Shown: piece after piece, positions 1 to 19,013 of the stretch
Numbering within the stretch: the stretch's first letter is position 1
Layout: every line of letters begins with the position of its first letter
NCBI GenBank assembly: GCA_032718865.1
Contig: JALUTQ010000042.1
Coordinates: 1 to 19,051 of the forward strand
DNA: 19,051 nt
Source of the DNA: Tilletia caries
Lineage: Eukaryota > Basidiomycota > Exobasidiomycetes > Tilletiales > Tilletiaceae
Direction: 5' to 3'
Program-made: the position numbers and the translations under genes
Notes under the pieces: generated by a model
Database searches by the model: none
Seen by the model: only the letters and a program-made list of their open reading frames with translations
What the model was told of the DNA's origin: nothing

Positions 1-20
1 TGTGCTGGTATCGTGCTCCC

Positions 21-44
21 TTTCTCTTTCTCTTTCTCTTTCTC
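21..44 (+). repeat. (TTTCTC)4 polypyrimidine mirror repeat in LTR
   Basis: Four perfect TTTCTC hexamers. Most of this tract reads the same in both directions on one strand (mirror symmetry), and it heads a pyrimidine-rich stretch of about 100 bases that continues with CCGTTCC-like repeats to about 110. It sits in the U3 part of the LTR upstream of the TATA box. Copies are at 6375-6398 and 12724-12747. Possible promoter or nucleosome-excluding role; no function is shown. Confidence 0.8.
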
Positions 45-230
45 AGTGCTTTCTCTCTCTTTTTCCTTTCCGCTCCGTTCCGATCCCGTTCCGTTCCTTT
101 CCGTTCCCTCTTCTGGCTCGATCCCTTTTCTGCTACCAAATCGTTACGCAATGGCTCGCTCCTCTCTCACTCGCTCACCTTTCCGACGACTTCCTTTACT
201 CTTTCCCGCCCTTACCAAGCTGGCCTCGAG

Positions 231-237
231 TATATAA
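231..237 (+). promoter_or_regulatory. TATA box of unit 1 LTR promoter
   Basis: TATATAA in a GC-rich setting, downstream of the polypyrimidine tract and about 47 bases before the self-complementary segment at 284. This fits a polymerase II promoter that drives the genomic retrotransposon RNA from the LTR. Confidence 0.6.
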
Positions 238-283
238 CGACTCATTGTACTTAGTTCTTTCTCGAATTCCACATTCTTCTTCC

Positions 284-295
284 CATTCTCTTGCT
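284..295 (+). promoter_or_regulatory. Candidate 5' end of transcript / self-primer segment, unit 1
   Basis: CATTCTCTTGCT is a perfect 12-nt reverse complement of the segment at 477-488. A further TGCA at 298-301 can pair with TGCA at 472-475 across a small internal loop. In Tf1-type elements the first bases of the mRNA fold back on the primer-binding site and prime reverse transcription; the position about 50 bases past the TATA box suits a transcript start. Copies at 6637-6648 and 12985-12996. The start site itself is inferred. Confidence 0.45.
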
Positions 296-307
296 TTTGC
301 ATACCTT

Positions 308-345
308 GAGGACCTCGTCCTAAATACTCAGAGGACTTCGTCCTA
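308..345 (+). repeat. Two tandem hairpins (AGGAC-NNN-GTCCT) in the LTR leader
   Basis: Two 15-nt direct repeats with one mismatch, at 308-322 and 331-345, each a 5-bp stem AGGAC/GTCCT around a CTC or TTC triloop. They lie just after the putative transcript start, so they would be in the RNA leader and, through the 3' LTR, near the RNA end. Copies at 6661-6698 and 13009-13046 are identical. A role in dimerisation, packaging or 3'-end formation is speculation. Confidence 0.65.
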
Positions 346-394
346 TTTCTTCTCCAATCAACAGGTTAGTCCCTCTTGATTGCGGCACAAGGTG

Positions 395-4128: not shown

Positions 4129-4548
4129 CCAGGGGTTGGCGATACGAGGCCGCTGTTGATGGACGCTATCGGTTGGTGAATACCGACGGGCACCCTGCGT
4201 CGGCCGACAAAGTGTTGGTGCCCTGGGCCGAGGAGCAGCAGCAGAGTTTTTGACGCGCTCAAGGCGGCGATCGCGAGTCCGCCCACCTTGGCGCATCCCG
4301 ATCCAAGCCGGCCGTACGTGTTGTATGTCGACGCCTGTAAGGATGCTTTTGCTGCCATCCTACACCAGGTGTTTCCGACTACCGCGTCAACCCCCGCTGC
4401 CAGCAGCGACACCATTTCCGCGTTCCCCGTTTCTGTCCATCTGCTGCCTCCGCGCGTTGCCAAAGAACGGTGGATTGCGTGGATACGGATGGATCGGCAC
4501 TTCGCTGGCATCTATCGACGGTTGTCGGAGACTGCGGACGGTGCGGAC

Positions 4549-5671
4549 GACGAATGGACTCTGACGGATGGTCTTCTGGTCCGTCGCGTCGATGGCAAGC
4601 TGGCGCTGCCCGAGGGTGCGATTGCTGAGGTGTTTCGACAGGTGCATGATCACCGCGGCCTTTTCGGGTTCTTGCGGACCTACTTAGCCGTGTCGCGCGA
4701 TTTCTGGCGCCCTCAGCTCTCGTTGGCCGTCCGCGCGTGGATAAAGCATTGTCCGTCGTGTCTTCGGACCAAGCGCGTTCCAAAGACCGGTTCTCTTGAC
4801 GTCGATCAGGACCCGCAGTTCCCGTTTTTCAACCATCAGCCTGGACATCCTGTATGGTTTTTCCGCGCACCCGTTCCGGGAACGATGCCGTCGTCGCGAT
4901 CCATGACGTTTTCTCTCGGATGATCATCCTCGAGCCCTGTTCCGCATCCATCACTGCGGAAGGCGTAGCGGCGGTCGTGAGCGACCGGGTCCTCCGGTAC
5001 GGGTGGCGTCCTCGTCGGATTGTGACCGACTCCGAATCTCGAGTCTCTGGCGCGGTGATGCAGGTGTTGGCTCGTTCCCTTCGTGCTGAGCTCACTCCGT
5101 CCCCGCCGCATCATCAGCAGGCGAACTCTGTCGAGCGGGCAATCCAAACCGCGCAGATGGTACTGCAGACGATGAGCTCGGAGGGACGCGCGCACTGGGA
5201 TCGACGACTGGTGCCCACGGTAGAGTTGGCGATGAACTCCACTCCGTCTTCGGTGTCTGGTTTCCGGCCCTTGGACCTCGTGTTCGTCAGCCACCCGGAT
5301 GTGTGCCATGCCGTCTTTGACGACGACGACCACCTGGGCGTGTCTTCCTTTGCCGAGCGGTTAGCTGCAGCGGAGGAACGCCTTGGTGATGCCCGCTTGG
5401 CGATCGCACGGGCTCGCGCGGTACAGCAACGGCGCTATGGTCGACGTCGTGCCGCTCCCGTGGAGATGGTCGTTGGCGACGAAGTCTTCGTTCGCCTGAC
5501 GGATCGACCGATCCCGGGACTGCGTGTGGACAAGCTGGATCCACGGAAGGCTGGTCCCTATCGGGTTCAGGAGATCTTGTCGCCGCACCGTGTTCGTCTT
5601 GAGTTGCCGGCGGATGTGGGTGTTGGTGACGAGTTCAGCGTCGAGCAGCTCGATCTCGTTCCTCGTGAGCC
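4549..5671 (+). pseudogene. Integrase, unit 1, two breaks around the first core Asp
   Basis: Same integrase. Extra T at 4825-4829 and 4858-4862 flank a short piece that holds the first catalytic Asp (4844-4846), taking it out of frame from both sides. The remainder, from PRTRSGNDAVV on, is open through Asp 5028 and Glu 5133 and the GPY/F module. Confidence 0.85.
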
Positions 5672-5959: not shown

Positions 5960-6316
5960 GTGGACGTGGACGGTGTCAGCGTTGAGTTGCGGGAGCGGCC
6001 GATTGCTTTCCTCTCGCGACTTACCTCTGTGGCCGAGAAGAAGATGGTGGCCTCTGAGCTAGAGCTCTGCTGCCTGGCTTGGGCGTTCGCTCGGTTTGCG
6101 CATCTTCTTGAAGGGGCCGAGGTGACTGTCGTGACCGATCACGCTCCGCTCGGCGCGATGCTGCTGTCGACGGCGGAGATTCCGTACGGACCAACCATCT
6201 CTCGGTGTCGGGCCCTGCTTATGCCGCATCTGCCGAACTTGCGCTTTATTCACCGCCCAGGTCATCGACACACAAACGCGGATGCGCTCTCCCGACTTCC
6301 TTTGCCGCCTTCTTGA
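5960..6316 (+). CDS. RNase H, C-terminal piece after integrase, unit 1
   Basis: Same segment with Glu 6062, Asp 6137 and Asp 6281, stop at 6314-6316. Separated from integrase by the G7 run at 5798-5804, which shifts the frame by two bases. Confidence 0.83.
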   Translation: MDVDGVSVELRERPIAFLSRLTSVAEKKMVASELELCCLAWAFARFAHLLEGAEVTVVTDHAPLGAMLLSTAEIPYGPTISRCRALLMPHLPNLRFIHRPGHRHTNADALSRLPLPPS

Positions 6317-6354: not shown

Positions 6355-6830
6355 TGTGCTGGTATCGTGCTCCCTTTCTCTTTCTCTTTCTCTTTCTCAG
6401 TGCTTTCTCTCTCTTTTCCTTTCCGCTCCGTTCCGATCCCGTTCCGTTCCTTTCCGTTCCCTCTTCTGGCTCGATCCCTTTTCTGCTACCAAATCGTTAC
6501 GCAATGGCTCGCTCCTCTCTCACTCGCTCACCTTTCCGACGACTTCCTTTACTCTTTCCCGCCCTTACCAAGCTGGCCTCGAGTATATAACGACTCATTG
6601 TACTTAGTTCTTTCTCGAATTCCACATTCTTCTTCCCATTCTCTTGCTTTTGCATACCTTGAGGACCTCGTCCTAAATACTCAGAGGACTTCGTCCTATT
6701 TCTTCTCCAATCAACAGGTTAGTCCCTCTTGATTGCGGCACAAGGTGATGAGAGCGGATTGCTAAGCTCACCAAACCGACTGGACGCTTGGCTCGACCCC
6801 CTACAGCTTTACGTCCTCCTCCTTTGCACA
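6355..6830 (+). repeat. Putative LTR between units 1 and 2
   Basis: Identical to the first LTR except that the T5 run at 60-64 is T4 here (6414-6417). It serves both as 3' LTR of unit 1 and 5' LTR of unit 2. It follows the 38-nt tail after the unit 1 pol stop and begins directly after GGTGGGGA. The end at 6830 follows the GCACA/self-priming argument and is less certain than the start. Confidence 0.62.
6584..6590 (+). promoter_or_regulatory. TATA box of LTR promoter, unit 2
   Basis: Identical TATATAA and context to that in the first LTR. In the array this promoter would transcribe unit 2, and its LTR would also supply the 3' end of unit 1 transcripts. Confidence 0.6.
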
Positions 6831-8697: not shown

Positions 8698-9037
8698 CAT
8701 GTCCCACTCACTCTTTCTCTACGCATAAATGACACAACCACATTTCCGCTTTCTTCCTTGCTTGATACGGGTGCCGCCCTCTCAATTATCGACGAGCATC
8801 TGTTGCAGACGTTGGGAGGGGAAGCGCAGGGAGAGGGGATGTGGGTACACGGCATCGGCAACATTCGAACGAAGGGATGGGTCTCACTCACGATCTTCGT
8901 CGAATCAACGGACGCTCAAGGTCGAACCGTCCATCTCGAGTCACAACAGGACTTCCATGTCCTTCCCCTCTTTTCCCCGGGCCTCTGTCTTGGGCTTGAT
9001 TCTATCACCGCCCATGATGTTCGCCTTGCGCCTGCTC
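8698..9037 (+). CDS. Retroviral-type aspartic protease domain of Pol, unit 2
   Basis: The core SLLDTGAALSIID holds the catalytic DTGA motif (Asp codon 8764-8766) between hydrophobic strands, as in retropepsins. Further on, LCLGLDSITAHDV fits the second conserved hydrophobic-glycine segment. The active enzyme should be a dimer and process Gag and Gag-Pol. Equivalent regions: 2346-2685 (Asp 2412) and 15044-15383 (Asp 15110). About 100 residues of low-complexity Pro/Ser sequence separate it from the frameshift site; they include a Lys stretch that is one Lys shorter in unit 3. Confidence 0.85.
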
Positions 9038-9696: not shown

Positions 9697-10479
9697 CCTG
9701 ATGCCGACGTCCGTCCGGTTCCTCCTCGACGCGCTAGCCCTGAGAAGCGTCGGGCAATGGACGCCGCCATTGATCAGTTGTTGGATTGGGGCATAATCGA
9801 GCCCTCTTCCAGCCCTGTGTCGTTTCCGGTGCTGATGGTGAAGCAGTACGACAAATGGCGTTTTTGTGTCGACTACAGGCATCTGAACACTGCTACCGTG
9901 TCGGATCGATACCCTTTGCCAACGATTGACTCGATTTTCAACACCCTCTTGGGCAAGCGCATCTTCAGCTCGCTTGATGCCATTCGTGGCTATCACCAGA
10001 TGCCTGTCCGGGAGGGGGACCGGTGGAAAACGGCGTTCACCTGTCATCGCGGTTTGTACCAATACAAAACCGTACCCTTTGGCCTCAAGAACGCTCCAGC
10101 TGTGTTCCAACGCCTTATGGACAGGATTTTGGGCGATCTTCGCTGGCGACACGCCGTCGTGTACATTGACGACGTGGTGATCGCGTCGCACACGATGGCG
10201 GAGCATGCTGCTGCGTTGGATGCCTTGCTGCGTAATGCCACCTCGGCCGGCCTCCGCTTCAGTCCCGCCAAGTGTACCTTCGCCGTACCGTCCTTGGTGT
10301 TGTTGGGGAGGAAGGTGTCGGGCGCCGGCGTCGCCGTCTGGGAGGACCGTGCCAAAGCCGTCCGTGATCTTCCGCGTCCCTCCACTCTCCGAGAGCTCTA
10401 TCATGTTCTCGGTCTGTTCGGGTACTACCGTGCGTTTGTTCCTCGGTTCGCCGACTTGGCCGCCCCCTCTCCAAGTTGA
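9697..10479 (+). CDS. Reverse transcriptase domain of Pol, unit 2 (intact catalytic core)
   Basis: RNA-dependent DNA polymerase with the usual gypsy motifs in order: LLDWGIIEPSSSPVSFPVLMV, WRFCVDYRHLN, FSSLDAIRGYHQM (first catalytic Asp 9976-9978), KTAFTCHRGLYQYKTVPFGL, then YIDD (10162-10173) with the two other metal-binding Asp. The thumb ends with LGLFGYYRAFVPRFADLAAP, where the C5 run at 10463-10467 causes a stop at 10479. This is the only copy in which the frame passes cleanly through YIDD. Host assignment to gypsy is firm. Confidence 0.9.
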   Translation, partial: PDADVRPVPPRRASPEKRRAMDAAIDQLLDWGIIEPSSSPVSFPVLMVKQYDKWRFCVDYRHLNTATVSDRYPLPTIDSIFNTLLGKRIFSSLDAIRGYHQMPVREGDRWKTAFTCHRGLYQYKTVPFGLKNAPAVFQRLMDRILGDLRWRHAVVYIDDVVIASHTMAEHAAALDALLRNATSAGLRFSPAKCTFAVPSLVLLGRKVSGAGVAVWEDRAKAVRDLPRPSTLRELYHVLGLFGYYRAFVPRFADLAAPSPS

Positions 10480-10661
10480 CCAGGGGTTGGCGATACGAGG
10501 CCGCTGTTGATGGACGCTATCGGTTGGTGAATACCGACGGGCACCCTGCGTCGGCCGACAAAGTGTTGGTGCCCTGGGCCGAGGAGCAGCAGCAGAGTTT
10601 TGACGCGCTCAAGGCGGCGATCGCGAGTCCGCCCACCTTGGCGCATCCCGATCCAAGCCGG
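10480..10661 (+). CDS. RT-RNase H connection of Pol, unit 2
   Basis: Continues from RT after the C5 break: LTRGWRYEAAVDGRYRLVN, then VPWAEEQQQSFDALKAAI, the usual W-x-x-E-x-x-x-x-F-x-x-L-K signature before gypsy RNase H. Some 25 residues more than in a minimal gypsy connection lie between the LT and W-x-x-E parts. In unit 1 an extra T at 4247-4251 adds another stop here. Confidence 0.75.
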
Positions 10662-10724
10662 CCGTACGTGTTGTATGTCGACGCCTGTAAGGATGCTTTT
10701 GCTGCCATCCTACACCAGGTGTTT
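10662..10724 (+). CDS. RNase H, first strand with catalytic Asp (N-terminal piece), unit 2
   Basis: PYVLYVDACKDAFAAILHQVF is the first beta hairpin of gypsy-type RNase H, with the first metal-binding Asp at 10680-10682. In usual elements the second strand and the ExxL helix follow within some 20 residues. Here they do not: the frame goes on into an Ala/Ser/Thr linker and then integrase. Equivalent pieces are 4312-4374 (Asp 4330) and 17011-17073 (Asp 17029). Confidence 0.8.
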
Positions 10725-10898
10725 CCGACTACCGCGTCAACCCCCGCTGCCAGCAGCGACACCATTTCCGCGTTCCCCGTTTCTGTCCATCTGCTGCCTC
10801 CGCGCGTTGCCAAAGAACGGTGGATTGCGTGGATACGGATGGATCGGCACTTCGCTGGCATCTATCGACGGTTGTCGGAGACTGCGGACGGTGCGGAC

Positions 10899-12020
10899 GA
10901 CGAATGGACTCTGACGGATGGTCTTCTGGTCCGTCGCGTCGATGGCAAGCTGGCGCTGCCCGAGGGTGCGATTGCTGAGGTGTTTCGACAGGTGCATGAT
11001 CACCGCGGCCTTTTCGGGTTCTTGCGGACCTACTTAGCCGTGTCGCGCGATTTCTGGCGCCCTCAGCTCTCGTTGGCCGTCCGCGCGTGGATAAAGCATT
11101 GTCCGTCGTGTCTTCGGACCAAGCGCGTTCCAAAGACCGGTTCTCTTGACGTCGATCAGGACCCGCAGTTCCCGTTTTCAACCATCAGCCTGGACATCCT
11201 GTATGGTTTTCCGCGCACCCGTTCCGGGAACGATGCCGTCGTCGCGATCCATGACGTTTTTCTCTCGGATGATCATCCTCGAGCCCTGTTCCGCATCCAT
11301 CACTGCGGAAGGCGTAGCGGCGGTCGTGAGCGACCGGGTCCTCCGGTACGGGTGGCGTCCTCGTCGGATTGTGACCGACTCCGAATCTCGAGTCTCTGGC
11401 GCGGTGATGCAGGTGTTGGCTCGTTCCCTTCGTGCTGAGCTCACTCCGTCCCCGCCGCATCATCAGCAGGCGAACTCTGTCGAGCGGGCAATCCAAACCG
11501 CGCAGATGGTACTGCAGACGATGAGCTCGGAGGGACGCGCGCACTGGGATCGACGACTGGTGCCCACGGTAGAGTTGGCGATGAACTCCACTCCGTCTTC
11601 GGTGTCTGGTTTCCGGCCCTTGGACCTCGTGTTCGTCAGCCACCCGGATGTGTGCCATGCCGTCTTTGACGACGACGACCACCTGGGCGTGTCTTCCTTT
11701 GCCGAGCGGTTAGCTGCAGCGGAGGAACGCCTTGGTGATGCCCGCTTGGCGATCGCACGGGCTCGCGCGGTACAGCAACGGCGCTATGGTCGACGTCGTG
11801 CCGCTCCCGTGGAGATGGTCGTTGGCGACGAAGTCTTCGTTCGCCTGACGGATCGACCGATCCCGGGACTGCGTGTGGACAAGCTGGATCCACGGAAGGC
11901 TGGTCCCTATCGGGTTCAGGAGATCTTGTCGCCGCACCGTGTTCGTCTTGAGTTGCCGGCGGATGTGGGTGTTGGTGACGAGTTCAGCGTCGAGCAGCTC
12001 GATCTCGTTCCTCGTGAGCC
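10899..12020 (+). CDS. Integrase of Pol, unit 2 (zinc domain, DDE core, GPY/F), one frame break
   Basis: Order: WTLTDGLLVRRVDG lead-in; zinc-binding domain with VHDHRGLFGF (His at 10995 and 11001) and HCPSCLRTK (Cys at 11100 and 11109); catalytic core with ISLDILYGF (Asp 11193), IVTDSESR (Asp 11377) and QQANSVERAIQ (Glu 11482), a D-x34-E spacing; then KAGPYRV (GPY at 11902-11910) and a GPY/F module to about 12020. It inserts the cDNA into host DNA. The extra T at 11257-11261 shifts the frame between the first and second core Asp. No chromodomain follows the GPY/F module. Confidence 0.88.
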
Positions 12021-12308
12021 CGATCCCTTCTTTGCCGACCGAGCGGCCTTGCCGGTACCGCCTGTCGATCCTCCTGTCTTGCATGGCGACGCGCCGGTCG
12101 ACGATGGCGGCGGAAGCGCTGATCTCGAGGCGCATCCACGTTTGTCGGGGGGGAAGGTGACTCCGTGGCCGAGGTGCCGTCGAACCGTCCCGCGCGCCAT
12201 CGACAGCTTCCTCCGAATCTTCGAGGATTCGACCTCGGAACCGTCCGTTCGTCCTCGTCGTCCGCGCTTGCCGACGCGCTTCGTGGTCCGATCTTTACCT
12301 CCAGGACT

Positions 12309-12665
12309 GTGGACGTGGACGGTGTCAGCGTTGAGTTGCGGGAGCGGCCGATTGCTTTCCTCTCGCGACTTACCTCTGTGGCCGAGAAGAAGATGGTGGC
12401 CTCTGAGCTAGAGCTCTGCTGCCTGGCTTGGGCGTTCGCTCGGTTTGCGCATCTTCTTGAAGGGGCCGAGGTGACTGTCGTGACCGATCACGCTCCGCTC
12501 GGCGCGATGCTGCTGTCGACGGCGGAGATTCCGTACGGACCAACCATCTCTCGGTGTCGGGCCCTGCTTATGCCGCATCTGCCGAACTTGCGCTTTATTC
12601 ACCGCCCAGGTCATCGACACACAAACGCGGATGCGCTCTCCCGACTTCCTTTGCCGCCTTCTTGA
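12309..12665 (+). CDS. RNase H, C-terminal piece after integrase, unit 2
   Basis: VDVDGVSVELRERPIAFLS (second strand), ASELELCCLAWAFARF (catalytic Glu 12411), VTVVTDHAPL (Asp 12486), FIHRPGH and NADALSRLP (Asp 12630) are the remaining parts of a gypsy RNase H in normal order, ending at the pol stop. They start about 95 residues after the GPY/F module, across a Pro/Asp/Ser-rich linker. The first strand is missing from this piece but exists 576 residues earlier. The C5 in place of C6 and G7 in place of G5 runs break the joins here; unit 3 joins this piece directly to integrase. Confidence 0.85.
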   Translation: MDVDGVSVELRERPIAFLSRLTSVAEKKMVASELELCCLAWAFARFAHLLEGAEVTVVTDHAPLGAMLLSTAEIPYGPTISRCRALLMPHLPNLRFIHRPGHRHTNADALSRLPLPPS

Positions 12666-12703: not shown

Positions 12704-13178
12704 TGTGCTGGTATCGTGCTCCCTTTCTCTTTCTCTTTCTCTTTCTCAGTGCTTTCTCTCTTTTTCCTTTCCGCTCCGTTCCGATCCCGTTCCGTTCCTT
12801 TCCGTTCCCTCTTCTGGCTCGATCCCTTTTCTGCTACCAAATCGTTACGCAATGGCTCGCTCCTCTCTCACTCGCTCACCTTTCCGACGACTTCCTTTAC
12901 TCTTTCCCGCCCTTACCAAGCTGGCCTCGAGTATATAACGACTCATTGTACTTAGTTCTTTCTCGAATTCCACATTCTTCTTCCCATTCTCTTGCTTTTG
13001 CATACCTTGAGGACCTCGTCCTAAATACTCAGAGGACTTCGTCCTATTTCTTCTCCAATCAACAGGTTAGTCCCTCTTGATTGCGGCACAAGGTGATGAG
13101 AGCGGATTGCTAAGCTCACCAAACCGACTGGACGCTTGGCTCGACCCCCTACAGCTTTACGTCCTCCTCCTTTGCACA
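12704..13178 (+). repeat. Putative LTR between units 2 and 3
   Basis: Same sequence as the other two LTRs, with one CT dinucleotide fewer in the pyrimidine tract (12757-12760 region). It starts with TG directly after the unit 2 polypurine tract. The near identity of all three LTRs would mean either very recent amplification or copies of one molecule. Confidence 0.62.
12932..12938 (+). promoter_or_regulatory. TATA box of LTR promoter, unit 3
   Basis: Third identical TATATAA, in the LTR between units 2 and 3. Confidence 0.6.
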
Positions 13179-16042: not shown

Positions 16043-16830
16043 CCTGATGCCGACGTCCGTCCGGTTCCTCCTCGACGCGCTAGCCCTGAGAAGCGTCGGG
16101 CAATGGACGCCGCCATTGATCAGTTGTTGGATTGGGGCATAATCGAGCCCTCTTCCAGCCCTGTGTCGTTTCCGGTGCTGATGGTGAAGCAGTACGACAA
16201 ATGGCGTTTTTGTGTCGACTACAGGCATCTGAACACTGCTACCGTGTCGGATCGATACCCTTTGCCAACGATTGACTCGATTTTTCAACACCCTCTTGGG
16301 CAAGCGCATCTTCAGCTCGCTTGATGCCATTCGTGGCTATCACCAGATGCCTGTCCGGGAGGGGGACCGGTGGAAAACGGCGTTCACCTGTCATCGCGGT
16401 TTGTACCAATACAAAACCGTACCCTTTGGCCTCAAGAACGCTCCAGCTGTGTTCCAACGCCTTATGGACAGGATTTTTGGGCGATCTTCGCTGGCGACAC
16501 GCCGTCGTGTACATTGACGACGTGGTGATCGCGTCGCACACGATGGCGGAGCATGCTGCTGCGTTGGATGCCTTGCTGCGTAATGCCACCTCGGCCGGCC
16601 TCCGCTTCAGTCCCGCCAAGTGTACCTTCGCCGTACCGTCCTTGGTGTTGTTGGGGAGGAAGGTGTCGGGCGCCGGCGTCGCCGTCTGGGAGGACCGTGC
16701 CAAAGCCGTCCGTGATCTTCCGCGTCCCTCCACTCTCCGAGAGCTCTATCATGTTCTCGGTCTGTTCGGGTACTACCGTGCGTTTGTTCCTCGGTTCGCC
16801 GACTTGGCCGCCCCCCTCTCCAAGTTGACC
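16043..16830 (+). pseudogene. Reverse transcriptase domain, unit 3, two frame breaks
   Basis: RT motifs are all present but spread over three frames owing to extra T in 16281-16285 and 16474-16478. YIDD is at 16510-16521. The thumb/connection boundary is open here (C6 at 16811-16816): AAPLSKLTRGW reads through, as expected for gypsy elements, and shows that the stops at 4128 and 10479 are run-length breaks. Confidence 0.85.
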
Positions 16831-17247
16831 AGGGGTTGGCGATACGAGGCCGCTGTTGATGGACGCTATCGGTTGGTGAATACCGACGGGCACCCTGCGT
16901 CGGCCGACAAAGTGTTGGTGCCCTGGGCCGAGGAGCAGCAGCAGAGTTTTGACGCGCTCAAGGCGGCGATCGCGAGTCCGCCCACCTTGGCGCATCCCGA
17001 TCCAAGCCGGCCGTACGTGTTGTATGTCGACGCCTGTAAGGATGCTTTTGCTGCCATCCTACACCAGGTGTTTCCGACTACCGCGTCAACCCCCCGCTGC
17101 CAGCAGCGACACCATTTCCGCGTTCCCCGTTTCTGTCCATCTGCTGCCTCCGCGCGTTGCCAAAGAACGGTGGATTGCGTGGATACGGATGGATCGGCAC
17201 TTCGCTGGCATCTATCGACGGTTGTCGGAGACTGCGGACGGTGCGGA

Positions 17248-18368
17248 CGACGAATGGACTCTGACGGATGGTCTTCTGGTCCGTCGCGTCGATGGCAAGC
17301 TGGCGCTGCCCGAGGGTGCGATTGCTGAGGTGTTTCGACAGGTGCATGATCACCGCGGCCTTTTCGGGTTCTTGCGGACCTACTTAGCCGTGTCGCGCGA
17401 TTTCTGGCGCCCTCAGCTCTCGTTGGCCGTCCGCGCGTGGATAAAGCATTGTCCGTCGTGTCTTCGGACCAAGCGCGTTCCAAAGACCGGTTCTCTTGAC
17501 GTCGATCAGGACCCGCAGTTCCCGTTTTCAACCATCAGCCTGGACATCCTGTATGGTTTTTCCGCGCACCCGTTCCGGGAACGATGCCGTCGTCGCGATC
17601 CATGACGTTTTCTCTCGGATGATCATCCTCGAGCCCTGTTCCGCATCCATCACTGCGGAAGGCGTAGCGGCGGTCGTGAGCGACCGGGTCCTCCGGTACG
17701 GGTGGCGTCCTCGTCGGATTGTGACCGACTCCGAATCTCGAGTCTCTGGCGCGGTGATGCAGGTGTTGGCTCGTTCCCTTCGTGCTGAGCTCACTCCGTC
17801 CCCGCCGCATCATCAGCAGGCGAACTCTGTCGAGCGGGCAATCCAAACCGCGCAGATGGTACTGCAGACGATGAGCTCGGAGGGACGCGCGCACTGGGAT
17901 CGACGACTGGTGCCCACGGTAGAGTTGGCGATGAACTCCACTCCGTCTTTGGTGTCTGGTTTCCGGCCCTTGGACCTCGTGTTCGTCAGCCACCCGGATG
18001 TGTGCCATGCCGTCTTTGACGACGACGACCACCTGGGCGTGTCTTCCTTTGCCGAGCGGTTAGCTGCAGCGGAGGAACGCCTTGGTGATGCCCGCTTGGC
18101 GATCGCACGGGCTCGCGCGGTACAGCAACGGCGCTATGGTCGACGTCGTGCCGCTCCCGTGGAGATGGTCGTTGGCGACGAAGTCTTCGTTCGCCTGACG
18201 GATCGACCGATCCCGGGACTGCGTGTGGACAAGCTGGATCCACGGAAGGCTGGTCCCTATCGGGTTCAGGAGATCTTGTCGCCGCACCGTGTTCGTCTTG
18301 AGTTGCCGGCGGATGTGGGTGTTGGTGACGAGTTCAGCGTCGAGCAGCTCGATCTCGTTCCTCGTGAG
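17248..18368 (+). pseudogene. Integrase, unit 3, one break after the first core Asp
   Basis: Zinc domain and the first core Asp (17543-17545) are in one frame, and the rest from 17562 on in another, owing to the extra T at 17557-17561. Asp 17727 and Glu 17832 are intact. A C-to-T change at 17950 turns Ser into Leu in NSTPSLVSGF. Confidence 0.85.
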
Positions 18369-18656
18369 CCCGATCCCTTCTTTGCCGACCGAGCGGCCTT
18401 GCCGGTACCGCCTGTCGATCCTCCTGTCTTGCATGGCGACGCGCCGGTCGACGATGGCGGCGGAAGCGCTGATCTCGAGGCGCATCCACGTTTGTCGGGG
18501 GAAGGTGACTCCGTGGCCGAGGTGCCGTCGAACCGTCCCGCGCGCCATCGACAGCTTCCTCCGAATCTTCGAGGATTCGACCTCGGAACCGTCCGTTCGT
18601 CCTCGTCGTCCGCGCTTGCCGACGCGCTTCGTGGTCCGATCTTTACCTCCAGGACT

Positions 18657-19013
18657 GTGGACGTGGACGGTGTCAGCGTTGAGTTGCGGGAGCGGCCGAT
18701 TGCTTTCCTCTCGCGACTTACCTCTGTGGCCGAGAAGAAGATGGTGGCCTCTGAGCTAGAGCTCTGCTGCCTGGCTTGGGCGTTCGCTCGGTTTGCGCAT
18801 CTTCTTGAAGGGGCCGAGGTGACTGTCGTGACCGATCACGCTCCGCTCGGCGCGATGCTGCTGTCGACGGCGGAGATTCCGTACGGACCAACCATCTCTC
18901 GGTGTCGGGCCCTGCTTATGCCGCATCTGCCGAACTTGCGCTTTATTCACCGCCCAGGTCATCGACACACAAACGCGGATGCGCTCTCCCGACTTCCTTT
19001 GCCGCCTTCTTGA
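18657..19013 (+). CDS. RNase H, C-terminal piece fused in frame to integrase, unit 3
   Basis: Same segment with Glu 18759, Asp 18834 and Asp 18978. The frame is continuous from the integrase core (17562) to the stop at 19011-19013, with G5 at 18497-18501. This copy settles that integrase and the RNase H remainder belong to one reading frame. Confidence 0.88.
   Translation: MDVDGVSVELRERPIAFLSRLTSVAEKKMVASELELCCLAWAFARFAHLLEGAEVTVVTDHAPLGAMLLSTAEIPYGPTISRCRALLMPHLPNLRFIHRPGHRHTNADALSRLPLPPS

Follow-up and report, generated by a model that had tools for sequence, protein, structure and literature searches.

The stretch of DNA analyzed here, called the window, is the whole 19,051-base contig JALUTQ010000042.1 of Tilletia caries (assembly GCA_032718865.1), and it consists of three units (6354, 6349, and 6348 bases) of a long terminal repeat (LTR) retroelement related to Ty3/gypsy elements. 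Each unit begins with its LTR, and the contig holds no flanks; its first base is also the first base of the unit 1 LTR, and it stops just short of where the next LTR would begin. The features are collected in Table 1. The RNase H of the Pol polyprotein is divided in two in every unit: an N-terminal piece follows the reverse transcriptase (RT), and a C-terminal piece comes only after the integrase.

Table 1. Features of the window; rows without a unit number refer to unit 2 (aa, amino acids; ORF, open reading frame).
Feature	Position	Strand	Basis or remark
LTR, unit 1	1-389	+	repeat among units
LTR, unit 2	6355..6742	+	begins TGTGCTGG, ends GGCACA; repeated in all three units
LTR, unit 3	12704-13090	+	repeat among units
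Gag-like ORF, 536 aa	6788..8398	+	putative Gag, from its position
Aspartic protease motif DTGA	8764..8775	+	PF13650/PF00077 matches weak, below cut-off
Reverse transcriptase, RVT_1	9847..10308	+	PF00078, E 4.7e-32; YIDD at 10162
RNase H N-terminal piece (lead-in, beta1-beta2, Asp 10680)	10575..10739	+	PF17919 positions 1-55 of 100
Integrase H2C2 zinc-binding domain	10959..11126	+	PF17921, E 1.8e-11
Integrase core	11187..11490	+	motifs SLDIL 11187, TDSES 11374, NSVERA 11473; rve match from unit 3
Integrase C-terminal SH3/GPY-F module	11824..12000	+	PF24626 match of unit 3 shifted by 6350; GPY at 11902
Variable linker, integrase to RNase H C piece	12001..12299	+	frame comparison of units
RNase H C-terminal piece, beta3 to end	12300..12662	+	PF17917 and PF17919; Glu 12411, Asp 12486, Asp 12630
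RNase H N piece core, unit 1 (Asp 4330)	4321..4368	+	codons read
RNase H C piece, unit 1	5990..6295	+	codons read
RNase H N piece core, unit 3 (Asp 17029)	17020..17067	+	codons; PF17919 in ORF 16321-17328
Open frame of unit 3, 505 aa (integrase core, SH3 module, RNase H C piece)	17496..19013	+	ORF list, Pfam

The four catalytic codons of the RNase H in unit 2 are Asp 10680 (VLYVDACKD), Glu 12411 (ASELELCCL), Asp 12486 (TVVTDHAPL), and Asp 12630 (HTNADALSR). The matching codons lie at 4330, 6062, 6137, and 6281 in unit 1 and at 17029, 18759, 18834, and 18978 in unit 3. In all three units the first Asp is thus upstream of the integrase and the Glu and two further Asp are downstream, those of unit 2 each at the coordinate given in the original prediction, which had been made from the letters of the window alone. 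The corresponding carboxylates of the Ty3 RNase H are D358, E401, D426, and D469 (PMC5371799, excerpt).

The N piece matches positions 1-55 of the 100 positions of the Pfam profile RT_RNaseH_2 (PF17919, E 2.6e-14), while the C piece matches positions 54-100 of the same profile (E 7.4e-8) and positions 29-88 of the 105 positions of RT_RNaseH (PF17917, E 4.8e-14). The two pieces are therefore complementary and do not repeat each other, in agreement with the prediction that each lacks what the other holds; neither two complete RNase H domains nor the single block between RT and integrase that is a gypsy feature was found. The other gypsy features (RT before integrase, RVT_1, H2C2, rve, and GPY/F) are present, with rve below the cut-off in some proteins. 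Between the two pieces lie the H2C2 domain in unit 2 and, in unit 3, rve (E 0.00019, under the cut-off) and SH3_Tf2-1, the GPY/F module. The reading frame of unit 2 shifts within the integrase core, and the linker frame changes in units 1 and 2 but not in unit 3, where integrase and C piece share one open frame of 505 aa, as the original prediction had stated. The integrase motifs SLDIL, TDSES, and NSVERA are presumably the D-D-E motifs holding the catalytic residues, and the H2C2 zinc motif HDHRGLF stands at window positions 4645, 10995, and 17345. For the unit 1 copy of the Gag-like ORF, Pfam gave no match.

Added RNase H domains have been described in LTR elements: the oomycete Chronos and Archon and the plant Tat elements carry an additional archaeal-type RNase H (PMC5348765, in part). 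By analogy, the C piece might be a second, separately acquired RNase H. However, it is a gypsy-type domain without the first Asp, it begins where the N piece ends, and its best match starts at profile position 28-30 in five Tilletia proteins as well as in the proteins P0110, P0206, and P0209, which makes a separate acquisition scarcely credible.

The three units are mutually 99.8% identical, and they are therefore not three independent witnesses of the split order; such witnesses are other loci and other species. In the alignment of the units the pairs differ at 8, 11, and 10 places, and all but one or two differences per pair are run-length changes in homopolymers or short C/T repeats, which may be sequencing errors. 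The contig may represent a tandem array or else three passes around one circle, and the array itself could be an assembly product. An order created by a misjoined repeat contig would fit a window that is an entire small contig of exactly three units beginning at an LTR, in what is probably a nanopore assembly with homopolymer length changes between units. Against such an artefact stand the remaining copies in the genome. A search with RT_RNaseH gave 315 candidates, 150 of which were scored, and 70 of these matches begin only at profile position 27-30 (a count made by hand listing, with the class of most given by the match range only). Three of the 70 lie in the window and 67 elsewhere, and the remaining scored matches are mainly near-full-length.

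We fetched 20 loci of the late-start kind, picked by hand and largely for long frames. Thirteen of them, all on contigs longer than 1 Mb, have as their longest frame a Pol of 1229-1601 aa (43-96% mutual identity), while the seven loci without a Pol frame of at least 1200 aa were excluded from the Pol alignment. All 13 Pols have the order RT, RNase H N piece, integrase, RNase H C piece: a beta1-beta2 hairpin (LYVDAS...LHQ and variants) follows RT, and after it come integrase and, past a variable linker, the C piece, which is complete in 12 frames and has lost its end from the frame in L020. The split form is not limited to the window locus. An extra small segment lies between RT and the N piece of the split Pols (about residues 270-297 of the split protein P0057), and the RT profile skips this segment in most ordinary loci of the same genome. 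One fetched locus, L028 (1768900-1778800 of a large contig), holds two split-type matches on the same strand, separated by about 6.3 kb; they share a 1750-column repeat with 99.5% identity and form a second tandem pair.

Three protein searches yielded 127 (best 120 used), 71, and 103 matches; they reach near relatives only, and absence elsewhere is weak evidence. All 71 matches to the integrase-C piece query from the window are from named Tilletia, and the named sources overall are T. indica, T. laevis, T. caries, T. controversa, and T. walkeri, with T. horrida as a fragment. Relatives outside Tilletia were found by the search with a divergent Tilletia member. Three of them, P0207 (Melanopsichium pennsylvanicum), P0206, and P0209, have the integrase before the C piece; P0207 is 43% identical to P0110 over 1077 aligned columns, and P0206 and P0209 keep the split order at 37-38% identity. 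A scan of viral contigs with the protein alignment A1 gave 120 pattern matches and no confirmed relative.

We classed 242 proteins with hidden Markov models (HMMs) of four segments: RT, the N piece (RHN), the integrase (IN), and the C piece (RHC). The order RT-RHN-IN-RHC was found in 131 proteins, 128 from Tilletia and three from elsewhere. The rest of the 205 Tilletia proteins (P0001 included) comprise 36 IN-RHC, 26 RT-RHN-IN, 4 RT-IN-RHC, 4 RHN-IN-RHC, 5 RHC, and 2 IN. Among the 37 non-Tilletia proteins, to which P0121 belongs, 29 show RT-RHN-RHC-IN and 3 the split order, followed by 2 RT-RHN-IN and one each of RT-RHC-IN, RHN-RHC-IN, and RT-IN. Where both pieces precede the integrase (30 proteins), they abut, with a median distance of 1 residue (range -6 to 20); in 135 split proteins the distance is 519 residues (range 283-614). 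P0190 of T. indica joins the start of a transporter (major facilitator superfamily, MFS) to an RNase H C piece and is perhaps a gene-model fusion or an insertion.

The order thus recurs at many loci and in several Tilletia species as well as in the three outside proteins, and misassembly, the doubt which the original prediction had raised against itself, does not account for it. As an explanation of the order, the artefact is in effect refuted. The central claim of that prediction, an integrase nested in RNase H, was borne out by the profiles, which recover the domain order RT, RNase H N piece, integrase, RNase H C piece, by the 13 long Pol frames, by the 131 proteins, and by one structure model (see below).

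To what extent the divided RNase H has been maintained can be read from residue conservation, insertion marks, and substitution rates. In alignment A1, the four catalytic carboxylates are present in 94 of 96, 98 of 98, 96 of 97, and 94 of 94 proteins; 22 of the 120 listed proteins, which cover less of the query, were excluded from A1, and these counts therefore favor fuller proteins. An LTR-like direct repeat pair more than 4 kb apart was found at 15 of the 20 fetched loci, and 7 of the 15 pairs are identical (for L015, only 146 bases aligned). A sixteenth locus, L028, is the tandem pair, and L023 has a closer repeat pair. Exact 5-bp duplications at the repeat ends are present at 9 of the 20 loci (L009, L010, L013, L014, L016, L019, L021, L025, and L026). 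Two LTRs with a target-site duplication, a gypsy LTR feature, are accordingly found in the relatives. The terminal repeats of full-length insertions are identical or nearly so, and the split lineage appears from these sequences to have inserted recently.

Ratios of nonsynonymous to synonymous substitution rates (dN/dS) were calculated by the Nei-Gojobori method, segment by segment, for pairs of loci. For L011/L017 they are 0 in the N piece (3 changes), 0.093 in the C piece, 0.036 in RT, 0.057 in the integrase, and 0.49 in the linker; the respective values for L019/L021 are 0.034 (9 changes), 0.051, 0.032, 0.047, and 0.375. The C piece gave 0.070 for L013/L018, 0.085 for L011/L012, and 0.167 for L009/L021, comparisons in which synonymous sites are near saturation and no ratio could be obtained for several segments; the changes in L014/L015 are too few for a reading. 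Judged by these ratios, both RNase H pieces are under purifying selection.

These data also bear on whether the split RNase H is a relic, broken in elements that are dead or that borrow RNase H from ordinary elements. The lack of a Pol frame of at least 1200 aa in the window copies and in seven of the 20 fetched loci, and the 26 of 205 Tilletia proteins with RT, N piece, and integrase and without the C piece would fit such a decay. On the other hand, the catalytic residues are near-invariant, dN/dS is low in both pieces, some insertions have terminal repeats without a difference and target duplications of exactly 5 bp, and the order is kept in the distant P0206 and P0209, so that a relic is highly improbable.

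Equally improbable, in our estimation, is that RNA splicing removes the integrase segment and restores an ordinary RT-RNase H. Although the codon after LHQ begins with GT in 10 of the 13 loci, GT is absent there in the other three (L016, L019, and L021), and no acceptor common to all was seen by eye in the 48 bases upstream of the C piece. Moreover, the frame stays open across both linkers in the long frames, and wherever a pair of loci yielded a dN/dS for the linker, it is below 1.

The AlphaFold model of P0057 superposes on Ty3 RT-RNase H at 2.3 Å, with RT and at least part of the C piece included in the superposition, and its linkers around the integrase are long and disordered. In this model the break falls in the beta2-beta3 loop. 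The original prediction was right that the N piece precedes the integrase; however, by DSSP on the model, this piece is the beta1-beta2 hairpin and not the first strand alone. The superposition of P0057 speaks for a packing of the two pieces as one RNase H fold, while a poorer model of a second protein, P0091, gave no confirmation of it.

In a variant with the same core as our interpretation, the RNase H would form in trans, from the N piece of one Pol subunit and the C piece of another in an RT dimer, or on a cleaved fragment. Ty3 RT is an asymmetric homodimer that takes its RNase H from the other subunit (PMC5371799, excerpt), and the long, disordered linkers flanking the integrase in the model would allow this arrangement. 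Nevertheless, the monomer model of P0057 already superposes on Ty3 RT-RNase H, and we regard assembly in trans as rather unlikely.

Several observations weigh against a functional split enzyme. The Pol frames are broken in all three window units; the window copies are not intact, and the case for function therefore rests on relatives. L023, the locus near-identical to the window, is only part of an element. In the window family, Leu replaces the second zinc His of H2C2, a position (H442 of P0057) that is His in 94 of 95 aligned relatives. The P0057 model has a predicted template modeling score (pTM) of 0.49, and the tail that holds its last catalytic Asp (980) is poorly predicted (mean confidence of 57 for residues 971-980 and values under 50 for 979-1005). 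The Foldseek alignment of this model to 4ol8_A spans 348 columns, which need not reach the C piece. For the P0091 model, with a predicted local distance difference test (pLDDT) value of 70.8, integrases head the VIA list, in which a single RT row spans the model, at a root-mean-square deviation of 16.9 Å. The annotated protein P0207 is without the Asp-bearing hairpin, its N-piece match reaching 11 bits only, and Asn replaces the first Asp in 2 of 96 aligned proteins.

The 14 split rows chosen for a 54-row RT tree group in a single clade (97/93; found in 96% of 200 bootstrap trees), which falls within gypsy, among ordinary RT-RNase H-integrase elements, under midpoint rooting and with comparison rows that are not named gypsy references; the nearest ordinary rows, P0225 and P0231, are on long branches. 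In a second tree of 32 rows, mostly loci of the same genome, 17 split loci are joined at 98/99, and their clade adjoins the ordinary loci L008, L029, L033, and L034 (97/96). With midpoint rooting, the trees fit a single origin of the split order. A chromodomain match, below the curated cut-off, lies between the integrase and the C piece in P0206, P0207, and P0209, while neither the window pieces nor six Tilletia proteins searched with Pfam gave one, which suggests that the Tilletia split elements lost the chromodomain.

Taken together, it is very probable that these elements belong to a Ty3/gypsy-derived lineage in whose Pol the protease and RT are followed by the beta1-beta2 part of RNase H, the integrase, and the rest of RNase H from beta3 onward, with the integrase as a very large insertion in the loop that joins beta2 to beta3 of one RNase H. 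The N piece would give the first Asp and the C piece the Glu and the two other Asp of one active RNase H, an activity predicted from sequence and model. The pieces probably meet in cis, with the integrase looped out on two flexible linkers, and folding in cis around the integrase would be the simplest mechanism. Either the protease would cut the linkers and free the integrase, the RNase H staying paired although nicked, or the fused RT-integrase-RNase H chain would be the working form. We tentatively extend the former: integrase excision may be coupled to RNase H, the protease cutting the two disordered linkers and the integrase leaving a nicked two-chain enzyme, so that Pol maturation could switch the state of RNase H, in a layout with a single origin in the common past of the elements of smut fungi, from which it would have spread as an enduring alternative way of building Pol. 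This extension is possible, but on balance we doubt it.

Classification of LTR retroelements and retroviruses makes use of Pol domain order, and domain pipelines will score the split elements as having a partial RNase H. The lineage points to an RT-RNase H able to mature with an entire enzyme inserted in it, and it offers a natural split RNase H with which the need for a contiguous RNase H becomes testable. In the sections consulted, the Tilletia genome papers (PMC10684912) name gypsy elements as the commonest transposons and do not mention the split order. We found no description of an RT-RH(N)-IN-RH(C) order among the papers listed by searches of the open-licence PMC literature, a scope outside which preprints, subscription papers, and Repbase lie.

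Judged by their RT and integrase, the split elements are gypsy-derived, but they lack the single-block RNase H. A gypsy lineage with a copia-like Pol order is formed by the Gmr1-type elements; like these, the split elements reorder Pol, but in Gmr1-type elements the integrase stands undivided ahead of RT, and none of the domains is known to be split. The H2C2, rve, and SH3/GPY modules are common to the split elements and the fungal chromodomain gypsy elements (chromoviruses), whereas in the outside relatives P0206, P0207, and P0209 the RNase H C piece comes after the chromodomain. Chronos, Archon, and Tat elements gain a second RNase H (PMC5348765, in part), while in the Tilletia elements one RNase H is divided. 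The site of the break has a parallel in RNases H2 and H3, which hold helices between beta2 and beta3 (PMC3985635, excerpt), although in the split elements this loop takes about 520 residues and a complete enzyme. Finally, Ty3 of Saccharomyces cerevisiae (structure 4ol8) resembles the split elements in its RT fold, RNase H fold, four carboxylates, and RT before integrase; its RNase H is one block before the integrase, whereas in the split elements the integrase and long linkers part beta2 from beta3.
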